Shown here: piece by piece, positions 17,681 to 36,894 of the stretch
How the letters are laid out: each line of letters opens with the position of its first letter
Numbering within the stretch: position 1 is the first letter of the stretch
Source: a virus
Reading direction: 5' to 3' (one strand)
IMG/VR virus record: IMGVR_UViG_3300050821_005904
Span: 1 to 46,905 of that record
DNA length: 46,905 bases
Made by a program: the position numbers and the translations under genes
The notes under the pieces: model-generated
Database searches by the model: none
Seen by the model: the letters and a program-made list of their open reading frames with translations, nothing else
Told to the model about the DNA's origin: nothing

Positions 17681-18640
17681 CTATGCAACGATCGGCGCGT
17701 TGGTCCAGCTGTCGAGCCGAGAAAGGCAGTACTTGTGCTCGTCGACCATTCCGACGTCCCAGTTGATGTGCGTGCGGTACGTCTTGCCGTCCTGCAGCAT
17801 GCCGATGTCGCGCACTTCGAGCGGCCGCAGCTGGAGGCCGCGCAGGCGCTGCTCGCCGAACGACACCACATAGAGAGACGCGGTCACCGGCGAGCCGCCG
17901 CCGGACGCCACCTCGTTGAAATCGAGCATGTAAGGGTGATCGTCCTTGGGGTAGCCCCACAGGAACGTCAGGCCGGCGTAGGACGCCTTGAGCCCGCCGA
18001 CGCCCTTGTCGCCGCCGATGTCGAATTCCTGCATCACGAATCCAGACAGGGTCTGAGTGCGGGCGAGTTGAATCCACAGGGGGCGCGACAGGTATGGCGC
18101 GATAATATGGGTGGGTTTATTCACGGCATTGATCGCAATATCCAAATTGGCCAACGATAATGGGCCGCCGCCGCTCGCTGCCGAGTTATGAATGTCTCGC
18201 GAATACTTGTTGGCCCTGATTTGCATGCCATTGAAGACGCGGGCGTTGGTCGATTCATCGCCCTTGATAAAGGTCGTCGCCCACAGCTGACCAAACGCGG
18301 TCAGGCCCATCTGCTCCTCGTAGGCGCGCCTTTCCGGGCCATGGCGGTCGACGATGGCGCGGTCGACATCGACATCGTGATCGATGATTGCGGTGTGCTC
18401 TTGCAACGGCGTGATGATGCCGTGCCCGGAGGACGAAGCCTCGTTGATGGCGCGGAACTGCGGCGTGGCCAGCACTGCCTGCCGGTAATATTGGAAGACC
18501 GAGCCCTTGAGGCCCTCGAACGGCATCGCCTCGAACACGTCGGTCGAGCGAGCGAACATCTCGATGGGTGGACGTCTGACGTCCTCGTTGGCGAAACTTT
18601 TAGCGTATTCCGCAACCGTGATGAGATTGGAGACAGGCAT
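17681..18640 (-). CDS. Major capsid protein
   Basis: Protein of 319 residues with a good ribosome site (GGAAGGGATG). It follows the scaffold gene and precedes the cement gene. Its style is that of HK97-fold capsid proteins of BPP-1-like podoviruses: an N-terminal arm with AEYAKSFANEDVRRPPIEMF, a middle E-loop/P-domain part (VDVDRAIVDRHGPERRAYEEQ) and a C-terminal A-domain with DGKTYRTHINWDVGMVDEH. No separate protease gene is nearby. Confidence 0.9.
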   Translation of the reverse strand: MPVSNLITVAEYAKSFANEDVRRPPIEMFARSTDVFEAMPFEGLKGSVFQYYRQAVLATPQFRAINEASSSGHGIITPLQEHTAIIDHDVDVDRAIVDRHGPERRAYEEQMGLTAFGQLWATTFIKGDESTNARVFNGMQIRANKYSRDIHNSAASGGGPLSLANLDIAINAVNKPTHIIAPYLSRPLWIQLARTQTLSGFVMQEFDIGGDKGVGGLKASYAGLTFLWGYPKDDHPYMLDFNEVASGGGSPVTASLYVVSFGEQRLRGLQLRPLEVRDIGMLQDGKTYRTHINWDVGMVDEHKYCLSRLDSWTNAPIVA

Positions 18641-19468: not shown

Positions 19469-19667
19469 TCTCTTCGAGTCCTTTGGACAACAAGCCCATC
19501 AATTCGGACGCGAAGATGCGTTGGCCATTTTCGACGCGCAACGCACGGACCTGCCCTGATCTGTTCACCTCCATCAGCCGTCGTTGCAGGTAGAGATAGA
19601 GCAGCTCGCCGTCGGGCGTGCGCCCGATGCGGTCGATTGCTTCGTGCATGGTTTCTTCGGTGATCAC
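19296..19667 (-). CDS. Small head-block protein (Bbp19-like)
   Basis: Protein of 123 residues starting at a GTG overlapping the portal stop (GTGA); the ATG at 19649 is an alternative. The N-terminal part (IDRIGRTPDGELLYLYLQRRL) and the RVENGQRIFASELMGLL helix recall the Bbp19-like proteins found between portal and scaffold in BPP-1 relatives. The C-terminal 57 codons overlap the scaffold leader in another frame. Role unknown; probably head assembly. Confidence 0.65.
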   Translation of the reverse strand: MITEETMHEAIDRIGRTPDGELLYLYLQRRLMEVNRSGQVRALRVENGQRIFASELMGLLSKGLEESARIRRSDAVIIEHARKHAVAGPDSRRRGIAAAIASGRQPSEFDTDDPRGPYGFGQT

Positions 19668-21289
19668 GGCAAACCCGCCGCTTGCTGCGGCTGGCCCTGC
19701 GGCGCCTGTCCGCCGGTCAGTTTGCTGATCTGGTCGAGCGCGGTTTGGACATCATTGGCATTGCGGAAATGGATGAGGTCGACGCGCATCTTCTTGATAA
19801 TGGCCTGCATGGTGGCGAAACCGTCGACCCGCAGTTTGAACTCCTCGGGAAAAGCCTGGCCCAGGATCTGGATCGCTTGCACCGTCTTGGCGATCTCCTG
19901 CTGCTCGGCGGCGCGCTGGGCTGGATTCATGGCGCGCGTCGATATCAGCGAGCCGTTGCGGCCGACCAAGCGCTGCACTGCGCCGACCCGCTCCAGGAGA
20001 TATTTGAACCGGTTGAAATACTGCATCGGCCCTTCGCGCCAGAACGCCATGCCGGGGGTGCCGATGCGTCGCTGCGCGCGCGCCATCTGGTCGAGCCACT
20101 GGCCGAGCGTCGGCGGGGTGTCGCCGCTCTGCTCCGGGAAGTCGATGAAGAACAGCTTCCGCATCCGGTGCTCCATCTCCTCGTGCTGGTAGATGGCCGG
20201 CTCCATGTTGATCGGCGGGTAAATCGGCTTGACGGCGCCTTCCGAGCCCTGGCGGATCGGATAGGCCATGCCGTCCTCGATCCCCTGCTCGATGTTGGTG
20301 AACGAGTCGCTCGGATAGGTAATCGGCGGATTGATATTGCGGCCGACGCCTTCGATCTTGCGACCTTCGAGCTCGTCGATCTGGCGCAGGTCCGGCAGCG
20401 TCTTGAACAGCGGACCCATGCCCCACGGCCAATCCGCGGTCGGATTGAACCGCGTGATCAGCAGCGGACAGCAGCCTTCGCCTTTGAGTTCGGTGCTATG
20501 GACCAGCTTGTTGCGCAGGAGGACCGTGTGCTCCCAGGTCTCGGTGCCGGTTTCCTCCCATTTGCGCCAATAGCCGAACACGACCTGGTGGCGGTCGCTG
20601 ATGTTGCCATCCTCGATGGAGCGGCGCTGCTCGGAGTCGACCTGGTCCCAGATCTCCTCGCCGAGCACGGCGCGGACATGGGGAGCGCGCGGCCAACGCA
20701 CCGCGAACCGGTCGTCGATTTCGCCGTAAGGCCCGAGATTGACCTCGCATTCGCGGATCGGAATGGCCTGGCAGGTGATGGGCGCGCCGGCGTAGGGGAT
20801 GTCGACCCACATGCCAGTCAGGCCGATCGAGAGGTCGGGATCGTAGGATTTCGGGATCTCGCTGTAGAAGTTCGACGCCTTGATCGCCTCGAAGATCAGG
20901 ATGTCGTCGTCGTAGACCTGGTCCTTGACCTGGTCCCACACCTGCTGCGGCACGAACATGCCGCGCCCGCGCTCGCACCACTGCTGCGCTTCGGGCATGA
21001 ATGTGTTGACGACCTCGGTCACAAACTCACCGACGAGGTCGAAGCCGACCGAGGTCTGCAGCTCCGGATAGTCCATCCAGCGCACCGTGCCGGGCGCAGT
21101 CTGCGAGGAGATCTGCCGCTGCCGGTGCGGCGCGGTCATGAAGTACATTTCCTTCATGTCGAGTTCGAAGAAACTTTTCCATGTGCGCGCGGCTGCCAGG
21201 CGCGACAGGACTTCTTTTTCGAGCGTGCGGTCGCCAGAGCCGCCACGGGGGCCCTCGTCGCCGCCTCCGGATGGTGTGCGGGCGAGCAT
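19664..21289 (-). CDS. Portal protein / head-tail connector (T7 gp8-like)
   Basis: Protein of 541 residues, the usual size of gp8-type connectors (T7, 536). Recognisable elements include the early helix (EVLSRLAAARTWKSFFELDM), PHRQRQ, FMPEAQQWCERG, SNFYSEIPKSYDPDLSIGLTGMW, and RFNPTADWPWGMGPLFKTLPDLRQIDELE, the last being a hallmark of the family. The C-terminus is Gln/Pro-rich. It should form the dodecameric DNA entry ring. The start overlaps the upstream stop as TGATG. Confidence 0.95.
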   Translation of the reverse strand: MLARTPSGGGDEGPRGGSGDRTLEKEVLSRLAAARTWKSFFELDMKEMYFMTAPHRQRQISSQTAPGTVRWMDYPELQTSVGFDLVGEFVTEVVNTFMPEAQQWCERGRGMFVPQQVWDQVKDQVYDDDILIFEAIKASNFYSEIPKSYDPDLSIGLTGMWVDIPYAGAPITCQAIPIRECEVNLGPYGEIDDRFAVRWPRAPHVRAVLGEEIWDQVDSEQRRSIEDGNISDRHQVVFGYWRKWEETGTETWEHTVLLRNKLVHSTELKGEGCCPLLITRFNPTADWPWGMGPLFKTLPDLRQIDELEGRKIEGVGRNINPPITYPSDSFTNIEQGIEDGMAYPIRQGSEGAVKPIYPPINMEPAIYQHEEMEHRMRKLFFIDFPEQSGDTPPTLGQWLDQMARAQRRIGTPGMAFWREGPMQYFNRFKYLLERVGAVQRLVGRNGSLISTRAMNPAQRAAEQQEIAKTVQAIQILGQAFPEEFKLRVDGFATMQAIIKKMRVDLIHFRNANDVQTALDQISKLTGGQAPQGQPQQAAGLP

Positions 21290-23358: not shown

Positions 23359-24759
23359 CTATTCGGCTGCCTCCGCCTGTTGATAATGATCAGCCACCTT
23401 TTTCCATGCGCGCAGCCCGAGATGGTCTCTGTCTCCGAGATCGAAGAGCAGCTGCTCCGAATTTTGACCCTCGTACAAAAGCATGGCGATGTCATAGAGG
23501 GCGATGACGCACAGTTCCTCATCGCGGCCCGCGCGCAGCTTGGCGATGTGAGGATTGTCGCTCGCCAGCTGTATTCGTGCTGACTTTTTCTCGATCAGCG
23601 CTCTGCCAAATCCCTCGGTCTCATGCAGACCATCGGAAAATTCGATCAAGAGACCACGCGGGGGTTTTCTCCCGCTGGTCGGCCCTGTCGGAGTTGGGTC
23701 TGTATCTGGCGCAGGCTTCACGCGCTTATCACCGCCCTTGGGACCCTGTCTGCCCTGGGGGTCCTTTTTTACGGGCCGCGAAATCTTCATATGGTCCGGG
23801 ATCATGTCGTTCAGCAATTGCACGATGCGGTTCGTCCTGAGCTTGAGGGACGCAGAGTGACACTTCTCCAGCACCGGAGCGATTATTTCCGCGACCGCAT
23901 CCTCCAGCTGATCGTATTCGTTTTTGTCGAACAGCTCGTCCTTGAACTTGGCCAAGTGCCAGCCGCCTTCGAGGCTGACCCGACAATACATAGCGGATAT
24001 GCCGGCATATCCGTCGCAAGCGAAAGCGCTCTCCTTTTTGATGAGGCGCCACGCATAGGAGACATCGACCTGCTTCAATTTTGATTTGTGGTCGACCAGC
24101 ATGCCGGCGATAACGCTGGCTTTATTTCCTTCTCCTAGATCGATCTCGCCCTCGACTACGTCGGTCATGGCTGGCAATGGTATGGGTTGAATATCGGCGC
24201 CGTTTAGCGTCACAGTGCGGCCATACAGCATAGCGGGGTAATACAGCCGCTGTATTATGTTGGCTGTTTTTACAATATCTCGTTCTTTTGGTTTACGGAA
24301 AAGCTCCAATATCTGCACACGGGTGTAGGTCGACTTGCCATGAGCTGGGAATCTGTTGGGCTTCGGGAAAAGCCACCGACCCGAGGTGCGGACTGTGCTC
24401 CAGTCCCAAAAGCGGACCATCTTTCCGTCTATTGATACGCTTTCGAATTTTATGCACTGCCCGTGTTGAATTGCCTTGGATTTGATGCCGACCCCATAGC
24501 GGCCCAGCTTCGTGCCCACCATAGCTCCGTGCACGGAAAGACGCGTGAGCGCATGGTCCCGATCCTTAGTGATCCCCTCGCCATTATCCCAACAAGTCAA
24601 CTCACCGGCATTCATGATCAGCGCGACCTTTGTCGCGCTTGCATCGAATGAATTGTCTATCGCTTCCCCGGCCCACTGCCAGAACTCAGACGGCTCCGCG
24701 CGGATAGCGTCAATTAGATGAGTGCTCGGAACGCCCTCCTCATCGTAATTATTCTGCAT
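23359..24759 (-). CDS. GHKL-type (HSP90/MORC-like) ATPase
   Basis: Protein of 466 residues with the Bergerat ATP-binding fold in the first about 100: N-box EAIDNSFDASA (E32, N36), G1 motif CWDNGEGI (D58, G60, G62), and G2 motif GRYGVGIKSKA (G86-G91). This puts it in the gyrase/Hsp90/MutL/MORC superfamily; a histidine-kinase identity is unlikely because no H-box or receiver is seen. A second domain (about 130-310) may be the transducer region. A Lys/Pro-rich linker (about 320-370) precedes a C-terminal helical domain. The gene overlaps its DUF3102-like neighbour by 11 bases and is preceded by GGAGC. Such ATPases often act in DNA handling or in defence; the phage role is unknown. Confidence 0.85.
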   Translation of the reverse strand: MQNNYDEEGVPSTHLIDAIRAEPSEFWQWAGEAIDNSFDASATKVALIMNAGELTCWDNGEGITKDRDHALTRLSVHGAMVGTKLGRYGVGIKSKAIQHGQCIKFESVSIDGKMVRFWDWSTVRTSGRWLFPKPNRFPAHGKSTYTRVQILELFRKPKERDIVKTANIIQRLYYPAMLYGRTVTLNGADIQPIPLPAMTDVVEGEIDLGEGNKASVIAGMLVDHKSKLKQVDVSYAWRLIKKESAFACDGYAGISAMYCRVSLEGGWHLAKFKDELFDKNEYDQLEDAVAEIIAPVLEKCHSASLKLRTNRIVQLLNDMIPDHMKISRPVKKDPQGRQGPKGGDKRVKPAPDTDPTPTGPTSGRKPPRGLLIEFSDGLHETEGFGRALIEKKSARIQLASDNPHIAKLRAGRDEELCVIALYDIAMLLYEGQNSEQLLFDLGDRDHLGLRAWKKVADHYQQAEAAE

Positions 24760-25886: not shown

Positions 25887-26084
25887 TCAGGCCGTAGCAA
25901 GCTTCACGGCCCACATGGCGGCTTCCTCGTAGGCCGTCATCGCCAGCTCGGCCAGCCGCGGGTCCTTGTCCTTGTTCGCCTCGCAGAAGTCGATCAGGTC
26001 GGCCGTCCTCCGCTTGATGATGTCAACCGCCGAGTGACTTTCCGGATTGAAGGTGAGCCGCACTCTCGTCTCGCCGATCGTCAT
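25887..26084 (-). CDS. Acb2-like protein (candidate cyclic-oligonucleotide sponge)
   Basis: The ATG at 26084 is chosen because AAGGAG lies 7 bases upstream; the ATG six bases before it is too close to that site. The 65 residues are two helices with a short turn, marked by TFNPESHSAVDIIK, ADLIDFCEA and TAYEEAAMWAVKLAT. This pattern (FNPxx...V..IK...A.LID, then AAMWAVK) matches phage proteins of the Acb2/Tad1 hairpin group as I know them. Acb2 blocks CBASS by binding cyclic di- and trinucleotide signals. It sits among small accessory genes behind the terminase. Family placement is from memory of the pattern, not a search. Confidence 0.7.
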   Translation of the reverse strand: MTIGETRVRLTFNPESHSAVDIIKRRTADLIDFCEANKDKDPRLAELAMTAYEEAAMWAVKLATA

Positions 26085-26229
26085 GCGCATTCTCCTTGCG
26101 CTGCCTCTTGTTGAACTTGCGCTTGATACGGGCGCGCTCACCGGGGCGCCAGTGGAGATAACGCTTGGCGCGCCGGCTGAACGCATCCCATTCATCGCCG
26201 CCGCTGAGCCGCTCCCGATGTCCCATCAT
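26023..26229 (-). CDS. Small basic protein
   Basis: The ATG at 26229 overlaps the upstream stop (ATGATG). The 68-residue product has WDAFSRRAKRYLHWRPGERARIKRKFNKRQRK, an Arg/Lys/Trp-rich stretch seen in small phage proteins that may bind nucleic acid. Its end overlaps the Acb2-like gene by 62 bases. No family name can be given. Confidence 0.55.
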   Translation of the reverse strand: MMGHRERLSGGDEWDAFSRRAKRYLHWRPGERARIKRKFNKRQRKENAHDDRRDESAAHLQSGKSLGG

Positions 26230-26480
26230 ACGATCTGTCCCTTGCGCCGCAGGTAGTCCACGGCCTCGGCCAATGAGCGCTTGGTGACCTCCATTTTCGG
26301 CTTGCCATACATGGCCTTCGCGCACGCGACGCAGAAGCGCTTGTCCGTCCTGGGGCTCGTATGCGCGATCCAGATGCGTTCGTCGCATTCGTCGCAGCGG
26401 CCGATTACGGACGCGGCAGAGGGGATCGGCATATCGGCGACGCGCATGCAAACAAGGCCGGTGTCATCGTCTTTCTTCAT
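26226..26480 (-). CDS. Small zinc-finger protein
   Basis: Protein of 84 residues with two CxxC pairs (GRCDECDERIWIAH, FCVACAKAM) spaced as in a treble-clef or TraR/DksA-like finger. The C-terminal part is helical and basic (KRSLAEAVDYLRRKG). The start has the strong GGAGGATC leader that recurs in this region. Possible transcription modulator; family uncertain. Confidence 0.65.
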   Translation of the reverse strand: MKKDDDTGLVCMRVADMPIPSAASVIGRCDECDERIWIAHTSPRTDKRFCVACAKAMYGKPKMEVTKRSLAEAVDYLRRKGQIV

Positions 26481-26612: not shown

Positions 26613-26909
26613 TCACTGTTTTTCCTTCCAGTCGCCGCACCAATCTTCGTTCAGCGTTATAGGCCAGTGGGCTTCGAACGGCTCATCCATTTCAGGATCG
26701 ATGCTATAGTTTGCCTCTTCCCTATTTGCGGTTTCCTCATCGGCAATTTCCCTGACGAGCCACCACAGCAACAACGCAGCGGCTTCGCTTGATTGCCGCA
26801 CAGCGTTGGGCATCGCCATTGGCGATCTATGGTGACAGGTTCCTTGCTGGCGCCGCTGCAGATAAGAACGCACCCAATAGGTGCACGTATCGCATCTCAT
26901 CTCTGTCAC
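26613..26909 (-). CDS. Small Cys-rich protein after terminase
   Basis: A GTG start overlaps the terminase stop (GTGA) and uses a GGAGGATC site inside the terminase gene; the product has 98 residues. It carries CDTCTYWV, a GTCHH pair and a terminal NEDWCGDWKE, the same Cys layout as the HiPIP-like proteins at 4178-4915 and 31633-32148. The middle is hydrophobic (AAALLLWWLV), then acidic. A longer ATG-initiated reading to 27134 would only translate the terminase gene out of frame. Confidence 0.65.
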   Translation of the reverse strand: MTEMRCDTCTYWVRSYLQRRQQGTCHHRSPMAMPNAVRQSSEAAALLLWWLVREIADEETANREEANYSIDPEMDEPFEAHWPITLNEDWCGDWKEKQ

Positions 26910-28423
26910 GCGCTGATCCTCCGCATGCTCTTCCTGCCAGCATAGACCTTGATCGGCTTCATCGCGCCGAGCGCGGTCTGGCCGACCATGCGTTGGCCCT
27001 CGCCGAGGCCAAGACAGGCATATTGCAAGGAGTCGCAGACATGACTGAATTTGTCCTTCTTCGGCGTCAGCTCGCCGTCCTCCTCGCGCTCCAGATGATA
27101 GCGGCCAGCCATGGCGAGCTTGAGCGTCCGGCACAGCGGCGATAGACAGAACCGCGGCCGGCCGTCGTACATCGAGGTGAGCAGGCTCGTCACCGCCTCG
27201 ACCCGGGTCGCGATCATGTTGTGCTTCAGGCCCGGCGGCGGCCGCACCGCCATGCCGTTGGCATTGAATATGTCGTATGCGGTCCGCTCATCGGCCTGCC
27301 CCTTATCCTGGCCCTTCGGATCGCCGTAATAGTCGACGGCATATCCGTCGTAGTGGGTGGCGATGAACTGGCTGACCCTGGGAGCAAATGTCACTGCGCC
27401 TTCGTTGAACCCGAGCAGCTCGTACTGCACCATGACGCGGTTGTTGATTTCCTGCATGAACACCGCCGCCGGCTGCCGGCCGAAATCGAGACCTACCACC
27501 ACGGTGTGGCCGGGAATCGGACGCAGCGGGATATGCGATACGTGGGCGTCGATCGAGAACTGCGGCCATACCGGCGAGCCGTCGACCACCAGTGCGATCT
27601 CATTGCGCAGCCGCGAGTCGATCCATGACTTCTTCTTGGCGTGCCAGGTTTCCGGGTAGTACTCCGCGCGCAAGTTGGCGAGGTTCTCCGCGTCCGGATT
27701 GACCTTATATCCCGTGAACATGCCGGCGCCGTCGCGCACCTCCAGCACCGCGGGCGGCTGCTTGTAGAAACCCCAGAAGTCCGGCCACACATATTCGCGC
27801 CGCTCCTCGTCGGTCAGGTTCGCCGGCATCGGCACCATGCCCGTCATGATCGCCAGCCAGTGGTCCTCGTCGGGCGCATTGGTGTCGGCGATCATGCCAT
27901 GCCACTCGGAGCCGCCATGGTCGGGCCCCGGCCAGCGCAGGCGGCCCATGCCCTCGTCGAACAGGATCTTCGGGATGAACGCCAATTCGTTCCAGGCCAG
28001 TCCCGTGAATTCCATGGATCTCAGCCGGTGCAGGTCGACCTCGCGGTCCAGCCCCATGAAGATGACCTCGGCGTCGACATCGCCGAACCGCAGCCGGTGG
28101 GTCGGCGGCGGGTTGCCGGTGATGGGGCCGTAGATTTCCTCGGGCACGATCTCGCGCCACGTCTTCATCGTGGTCGTCTTCACCTCGGTGTAGGTGTTGC
28201 GCACGATGGCCCAGCGCGACATCCGCCGCCCGGTGAGCTTGGAGACGCGCTGCTGCTGGATGTGGCGCATGACTCTGGCGCACATCGCCTGGGTCTTGCC
28301 CGATCCCAATGGTCCGCAAATGACGTCGACCGGGCGGTCGCTGAGCAGGAACTTCGCGAGCTGGGTGTTGGGCGCGACCCTGAACACGCGTCTGGTGTCC
28401 GGCTGTTTTGGCGCCTGCGCCAT
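26906..28423 (-). CDS. terL: Terminase large subunit
   Basis: DNA-packaging motor and headful nuclease, 505 residues. The ATPase domain has Walker A CGPLGSGKT (G37-T44) and a Walker B-type segment ending in WNE (E146). The nuclease domain has D313 in GLDFGRQPAA, D368 in YYGDPKG, and a late Asp in KKDKFSHVCDSLQYA. It starts the late minus-strand block with an AGGAGTGAG site and stands opposite a divergent plus-strand gene. The probable small subunit is not adjacent but at 34331-34813. Confidence 0.95.
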   Translation of the reverse strand: MAQAPKQPDTRRVFRVAPNTQLAKFLLSDRPVDVICGPLGSGKTQAMCARVMRHIQQQRVSKLTGRRMSRWAIVRNTYTEVKTTTMKTWREIVPEEIYGPITGNPPPTHRLRFGDVDAEVIFMGLDREVDLHRLRSMEFTGLAWNELAFIPKILFDEGMGRLRWPGPDHGGSEWHGMIADTNAPDEDHWLAIMTGMVPMPANLTDEERREYVWPDFWGFYKQPPAVLEVRDGAGMFTGYKVNPDAENLANLRAEYYPETWHAKKKSWIDSRLRNEIALVVDGSPVWPQFSIDAHVSHIPLRPIPGHTVVVGLDFGRQPAAVFMQEINNRVMVQYELLGFNEGAVTFAPRVSQFIATHYDGYAVDYYGDPKGQDKGQADERTAYDIFNANGMAVRPPPGLKHNMIATRVEAVTSLLTSMYDGRPRFCLSPLCRTLKLAMAGRYHLEREEDGELTPKKDKFSHVCDSLQYACLGLGEGQRMVGQTALGAMKPIKVYAGRKSMRRISA

Positions 28424-35875: not shown

Positions 35876-36046
35876 ATGACCAACCACGAATACATCGCCG
35901 CGCTTCACATGCGCCACCAACGGTATCAGACGCACCGTCGTCGCGAGCAGCGGCTCAATTTCTGGATCGGCGCAAGTGCCGTCGCCTTCATGGCATGCAT
36001 GTCGCTAGTGCCGGTTCTAATCATCATCAATGACATTTGGGCGTGA
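35876..36046 (+). CDS. Small single-TM protein
   Basis: The ATG at 35876 has AAGGGGAAAG upstream. 56 residues: a basic N-terminal helix (RHQRYQTHRRREQRL) and one transmembrane segment (WIGASAVAFMACMSLVPVLI). Topology would place the basic part in the cytoplasm. A longer frame from 35684 overlaps the previous gene. Confidence 0.6.
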   Translation: MTNHEYIAALHMRHQRYQTHRRREQRLNFWIGASAVAFMACMSLVPVLIIINDIWA

Positions 36047-36108
36047 GCGTTGCGCATTGCCGCTCCCATGCGGTGCGGCTTTGCAGAGCGCTTTTGCTCA
36101 GAGGGGGA

Positions 36109-36894
36109 ATGAACATGTCAAACTATAGCAACATCAAATCGACGCGCATCAAGCCCGAGGACGCGGCCCGGTGGGGCTTCGCGGTCATGGCCTCGATCGA
36201 TAATCCGAAGGCGAGCAAAGCCACGGAATACGGCTACCTCAACGCGATACTGTACATGGCGCCGAAGGATAGCGCCGGAGTAGGAGATTTGTGCCCCAAC
36301 TCCGGAGATTGCGTGCACATTTGCCTTGGCGCCCATAGCGGGCAGGCATCGATGCGCAAGGATGACGAAGACAACGCGGTGACGCTAGCTCGGAAGGCGC
36401 GCGCGCGCGCCTATATGACGGAGCGGGAATTGTTCCTGACATACGTCAAGCGCGACATAGAACGTCTGCAGGGCATTGCCGCTCGCATGGGGCTGCAGCT
36501 GTGCTACCGGTTCAACGGGTCGACCGATGTTGGCGTGCCTGCATGGCTATGCAATATGTTCCCCGCGGTGACGTTCATCGATTACACGAAAAACCCCAAC
36601 AAGATGGCGCAATATCTCGCGGGGCGGTTGCCGCCGAATTACCACGTCACTTTCTCGCGGGACACGCACAATGAGCGGCTCGCCGAGCGGTTCCTAGGGC
36701 AGGGCGGTAATGTCGCGGTGGTGTTCGGCAATGGGCGGCCTGCTGCGTGGCGTGGCTTTGCGGTCATTGACGGGGATAGACACGACGTTCGTACACCTCA
36801 AATGGACGGCCGCGGCGTTGTGATCGCCTTGACGCCCAAAGGCGCCAAGGCGAAGCGCGAAACCAAGGGCTTCATCGTGAGGGATGCTGCATGA
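36109..36894 (+). CDS. GP88-family protein
   Basis: The ATG at 36109, with GAGGGGG upstream, gives 261 residues; the ATG two codons later is an alternative. Marks of the GP88 family (gene product 88 of mycobacteriophages and plasmids) are TEYGYLNAILYMAPKDSAG, LCPNSGDCVHICLGAHSGQA, YVKRDIERLQGIA, and the VTFIDYTKNPNKM and HVTFSRDTHNE strands. The three Cys near residue 65 may bind metal. Its function is not established. It is coupled to the next gene by ATGA. Confidence 0.82.
   Translation: MNMSNYSNIKSTRIKPEDAARWGFAVMASIDNPKASKATEYGYLNAILYMAPKDSAGVGDLCPNSGDCVHICLGAHSGQASMRKDDEDNAVTLARKARARAYMTERELFLTYVKRDIERLQGIAARMGLQLCYRFNGSTDVGVPAWLCNMFPAVTFIDYTKNPNKMAQYLAGRLPPNYHVTFSRDTHNERLAERFLGQGGNVAVVFGNGRPAAWRGFAVIDGDRHDVRTPQMDGRGVVIALTPKGAKAKRETKGFIVRDAA

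Follow-up and report, generated by a model that had tools for sequence, protein, structure and literature searches.

The hairpin gene and its surroundings

The window analysed here, the whole 46,905-nucleotide stretch of a viral record, carries on its minus strand a coding sequence of 65 codons plus stop (25887–26084, stop included) whose product, hereafter the hairpin protein, belongs to the Acb2/Tad1 hairpin family. A preliminary description of this DNA had reported a 65-residue protein with the motifs TFNPES, DIIK, ADLID and EEAAMWAVK at 25887–26084. Such a protein is indeed present, in a minus-strand frame; the description was silent on strand, and the plus-strand translation of the same positions is unrelated. 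The open reading frame delimited mechanically is longer, with 102 residues from an in-frame upstream ATG at 26195. We favour the start at 26084 because a ribosome-binding-site-like AGGAG (26092–26096, minus strand) lies 7 nt 5' of this ATG and because the alignments of the relatives begin near that residue. Another small ORF (26023–26232, minus strand), which encodes a very basic product of ~67–70 residues, HWRPGERARIKRKFNKRQRKE, overlaps, in a different frame, the beginning of the hairpin gene and is present in 1 of 89 loci, that of the near-identical contig L001.

The hairpin ORF is a real gene. Three results indicate that it is more than a chance frame: its product matches a Pfam family with an E-value of 2.1e-9, 131 of the 143 viral-contig stretches that fit the search pattern code for a relative (tblastn E ≤ 1e-3; best 80 kept), and third codon positions account for 466 of the 828 nucleotide differences counted over 770 codons in 12 hand-chosen relatives, an excess that fits a protein under purifying selection. 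Among the best 80 of the 131, the identical copy in L001 aside, the relatives are 58–73% identical to the hairpin protein, and most of the relatives read have 64–75 residues. L001, a contig from another metagenome, shows 99.988% identity to the window across 8195 bases; the two are probably the same virus found twice, from different samples. Short hairpin proteins of this class occur commonly in phages from the environment, with 131 matching stretches from a single scan, and a search of 50,697 named phage records returned only relatives with less than 60% identity.

The hairpin gene lies between the genes for the terminase large subunit (26906–28423; phrog_2 of PHROGs, E 7.6e-16) and the portal, or head-tail connecting, protein (19664–21289; PF12236, 75.4 bits; phrog_332), all on the minus strand, as is the major capsid protein gene (17681–18640; PF20911, 38 bits; phrog_212, E 4.4e-38). 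Also between terminase and portal, on the minus strand at 23359–24759, is a gene for a 466-residue protein that contains a GHKL/HSP90-type ATPase domain (PF13589, 43.4 bits) and has a weak similarity to MzaB in PADLOC (E 0.00032), which is possibly a counter-defence or defence-related gene. Further away, a plus-strand gene at 36037–36894 encodes a member of the Gene product 88 family (PF17338, 98.5 bits), of unknown function. When the 12 neighbour proteins of the window (13 with the hairpin protein) were compared by tblastn with 89 loci, shared neighbours were found only in L001, apart from the terminase in L034 and L064. A conserved operon partner of the hairpin gene was therefore rejected.

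Family membership and predicted fold

The preliminary description had attributed the protein to the Acb2/Tad1 hairpin group and had named an HMM search against that family as a check. In this search, the hairpin protein scores 37.9 bits (E 2.1e-9) against Pfam PF24729 (Acb2/Tad1 hairpin), for which the curated cut-off is 27 bits, with residues 13–61 (25902–26048, minus strand) covering profile positions 3–54 of 58. PF24729 is also matched by all 30 aligned relatives at E ≤ 0.01. The genomes that carry proven Acb2 genes, used as positive controls, gave 70.3 bits (T4, Vs.4) and 65.3 bits (PaP2, p26), and none of 14 control genomes had a match at E ≤ 0.001; at a lax E of 10, 10 of these 14 were matched, none above the cut-off.

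Profile-profile comparison of the short family with nine Acb2-type proteins gave a probability of 93.7% (E 1.9e-7), which rose to 96.9% (E 1.6e-10) when the isolate relatives were included. A profile that combines the hairpin proteins with Acb2 matches the solved Acb2 structures 8ixz, 8h2j and 7uq2 (E 3.7e-25), a result that is not independent since Acb2 itself is in the profile. Profiles built from the short family only gave weak matches to Vs.4 among the solved structures (E 0.019 and 0.015), and the single hairpin sequence gave no Acb2 among the matches listed, which were weak and unrelated, mostly G-protein gamma subunits. PHROGs, NCBIfam and PADLOC provided no useful match for the 65-residue protein (best PHROG E 0.063).

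The AlphaFold2 monomer model of the hairpin protein has a mean pLDDT of 95.9 and a pTM of 0.81, and consists of a short N-terminal helix (residues 3–7) followed by two long antiparallel helices (18–36 and 42–64). The two-helix protein of the preliminary description is thus recovered as a predicted helical hairpin, with one short helix in addition. PMC12043709 describes the Acb2 protomer as a short helix plus two long helices, a layout that the predicted model shares. Among viral models, those closest in structure are two entries named "Acb2/Tad1 hairpin domain-containing protein", with TM scores by query length of 0.88 and 0.92 and E-values of ~0.001. Among solved structures, the model had no Foldseek match at E ≤ 0.001, and VIA-align over 61 chains listed generic helical hairpins only (Z up to 7.1) and no Acb2 chain; such comparisons are uninformative because a two-helix hairpin is too plain. 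A hairpin-like stretch (TM 0.73 over the model, Foldseek E 0.19) was also seen in UniProt M4PQN8, an uncharacterised protein of 188 residues from Sulfitobacter phage phiCB2047-B, which may be a fusion of a sponge hairpin with another domain.

The match above the cut-off and the predicted helical hairpin both came out positive, and together they support membership in the Acb2/Tad1 hairpin family. The gene product is a stand-alone, hairpin-only member of this known and catalogued family; in UniProt, such short proteins already bear the name "Acb2/Tad1 hairpin domain-containing protein".

Functional residues and proposed role

Jenson and co-workers solved the structure of Vs.4 with cGAMP. According to their report (PMC10097602), Y8 and F82 provide the base stacking, polar contacts to cGAMP come from Y8, H11, K23 and R79, the hexamer is destroyed by mutation of L29, A66, A73 or A77, and the F82A substitution lowers cGAMP binding more than 25-fold. 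For T4 Acb2, a change of T68 to M lowers binding, as stated in PMC12657230. We located the corresponding residues in a MAFFT alignment of 45 proteins comprising short sequences, isolate relatives and Acb2-type proteins.

The four interface residues of Vs.4 (L29, A66, A73 and A77) correspond to L30, A48, A55 and A59 of the hairpin protein; all four are identical, and each is kept in 30 of 30 short sequences. This identity at 4 of 4 interface positions compares with 9 of 53 at the other aligned positions (Fisher p 0.0018), and for all functional positions taken together it is 6 of 13 versus 7 of 44 elsewhere (p 0.03). At the cGAMP site, Y8, K23 and R79 become F12, K24 and K61, i.e. the lysine is identical and the other two changes are conservative. 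K24, which is K23 in Vs.4 and K26 in PaP2, is found in all 30 short sequences, all 5 isolate relatives and all 9 Acb2-type proteins, and T68 of T4 Acb2 corresponds to T50.

Other residues of the dinucleotide pocket differ. The stacking residue F82 of Vs.4 is replaced by T64, but an aromatic residue at this position is missing in 7 of the 9 Acb2-type proteins, including PaP2 (A there), so that F82 does not characterise the family as a whole. H11 is replaced by E15, and the C-terminal proline found in 9 out of 9 Acb2-type proteins is absent from the hairpin protein, which ends before it, as is the C-terminal "QP" tail. For lack of this proline and kink, we place the hairpin protein in the hairpin family and not in Acb2 in the narrow sense. 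Judged by these residues, the hexamer core is intact and the dinucleotide pocket partly changed.

In the same alignment, PaP2 Y11, K26, R67 and T74 correspond to F12, K24, R43 and T50, respectively, and R43 is present in 30 of 30 short sequences. R67 of PaP2 Acb2 is a trinucleotide contact. The three-fold core is the cyclic trinucleotide site of Acb2 and Tad1 (PMC12043709), and in the hairpin protein this core looks intact from its residues.

We consider it likely that the hairpin protein acts as a hexameric sponge, which takes up cyclic oligonucleotides and so dampens immunity of the CBASS type. The protein would assemble as an Acb2-type hexamer of three head-to-head pairs and would sequester cyclic oligonucleotide alarm signals while leaving them uncut; effectors of CBASS, or of other systems triggered by cyclic nucleotides, e.g. 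CapV or NucC, would stay off during infection. The computed basis consists of the homology, the predicted monomer fold, the conserved residues at the hexamer interface and a nucleotide site that is conserved in part. From these we infer that the protein would form a hexamer, bind its ligand and protect the phage, of which the last step is the least certain; the putative anti-CBASS activity comes from homology and conserved residues. That the phage meets CBASS-type immunity in its host, as the preliminary description suggested, would be a further, conjectural step. A SMODS cyclase gave no match in the window record, and was found above the cut-off in 3 of 9 bacterial assemblies that carry a relative; several of these nine are metagenome assemblies, and this anecdotal count, taken without a matched background, does not serve as evidence here.

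The genomic position of the hairpin gene bears on a different role, in which a protein of the same fold would be a head or packaging accessory that acts in virion assembly and not in immune evasion. We regard this as quite improbable, although the location between terminase and portal also fits a late, virion-related function. A flank scan, which took one large gene each at 20 of the 32 surveyed loci and by this choice of large genes favours terminase and portal, returned 8 terminase large subunits, 3 portal proteins, 1 DNA polymerase and 8 genes without a match. The 11 loci with a nearby terminase or portal gene (L006, L012, L021, L029, L033, L036, L046, L050, L054, L070 and L101) come from otherwise unrelated phages, and the relative in Providencia phage PS3 has internal virion proteins on both sides. 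However, Acb2-type genes are found in head modules as well (JBD67, the Leptolyngbya phage, Vibrio D80 and Serratia BF), and location therefore does not discriminate between a sponge and a virion part. Moreover, relatives occur near recombination or replication genes in EcP1, elemo phage and FCL-2, and the DNA polymerase of the scan flanks the relative in L061; T4 vs.4 itself sits among small genes near regB. The flanking genes tested in the other loci are not detectably related to those of the window, with the exceptions given above, which points to a hairpin gene that passes from one phage to another, unrelated one and not to a fixed part of the virion. Its location would therefore also suit a gene for immune evasion.

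Two other alternatives concern the ligand. The hairpin protein could form a genuine nucleotide-binding hexamer but prefer a ligand other than a CBASS signal, for instance cA3 of type III CRISPR or a housekeeping cyclic dinucleotide. The differences from Vs.4 in the dinucleotide pocket (F82, H11 and the C-terminal tail) speak for this, as does the statement, in the review PMC12043709, that Acb2 binds cyclic trinucleotides tighter than dinucleotides, in separate pockets, and could affect type III CRISPR. We nevertheless judge it unlikely, and because cA3 is also a CBASS signal this alternative overlaps with the CBASS-directed sponge. An identity as a Tad1-type inhibitor of Thoeris is suggested by the name of PF24729, which refers to both Acb2 and Tad1, but appears highly improbable: in Tad1 as published (PMC12043709), a four-stranded N-terminal beta sheet precedes the hairpin, whereas the hairpin protein has only ~10 residues before the conserved FNP motif and its 65-residue model contains no strand.

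Returning to a sponge that acts on CBASS, we tentatively propose, as a doubtful extension, that the hairpin-only proteins of 65–70 residues form a large class of minimal sponges in environmental phages, conserved in sequence, which would have kept the hexamer core and the three-fold channel, lost the C-terminal dinucleotide half-pocket, become trinucleotide-selective, and would recur in the terminase-portal operon. The open literature searched contained no functional test of this short class. If the proposal is true, a minimal sponge would be made together with terminase transcripts. In staphylococcal phages, RNA of terminase genes can activate CBASS (PMC10686824), which makes the position of the hairpin gene between terminase and portal suggestive. 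More generally, the hairpin gene would add one case to a family that lets phages mute bacterial second-messenger immunity. Acb2-type sponges can also set off the Panoptes defence (PMC12657218 and PMC12657230), and the spread of sponges therefore bears on the defences under pressure in the wild.

Comparison with known systems

Tad1 has the hairpin domain in common with the hairpin protein by the naming of Pfam, and its N-terminal beta-sheet domain is absent from the latter. T4 Vs.4 (PDB 7uq2) shares PF24729, the four interface residues and, at the cGAMP site, the lysine (K24), with conservative replacements of the aromatic and basic residues there (F12 and K61), whereas it has 88 residues instead of 65, is 22% identical in the joint alignment, and has F82, H11 and the QP tail of its own. 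PaP2 p26 (PDB 8h2j and 8ixz) shares PF24729 and the arrangement of a short helix with two long ones, but is longer (93 residues), with a longer part between the helices, a C-terminal kink and only 8% identity in the joint alignment. The preliminary description had called the protein shorter than the characterised Acb2 proteins. This is correct with respect to Vs.4 and p26, but close Acb2 relatives with as few as 74 residues are encoded by Serratia phage BF, by Leptolyngbya phage Lsp-JY19 and by a Vibrio phage. Stuart_43 of Providencia phage PS3 (UniProt A0A411AWH0), which its record calls a hypothetical protein, is divergent in the sequence of the second long helix; like the hairpin protein, it is a stand-alone hairpin of 65 residues, with 39% identity, a TM score of 0.88 and the same order of motifs.
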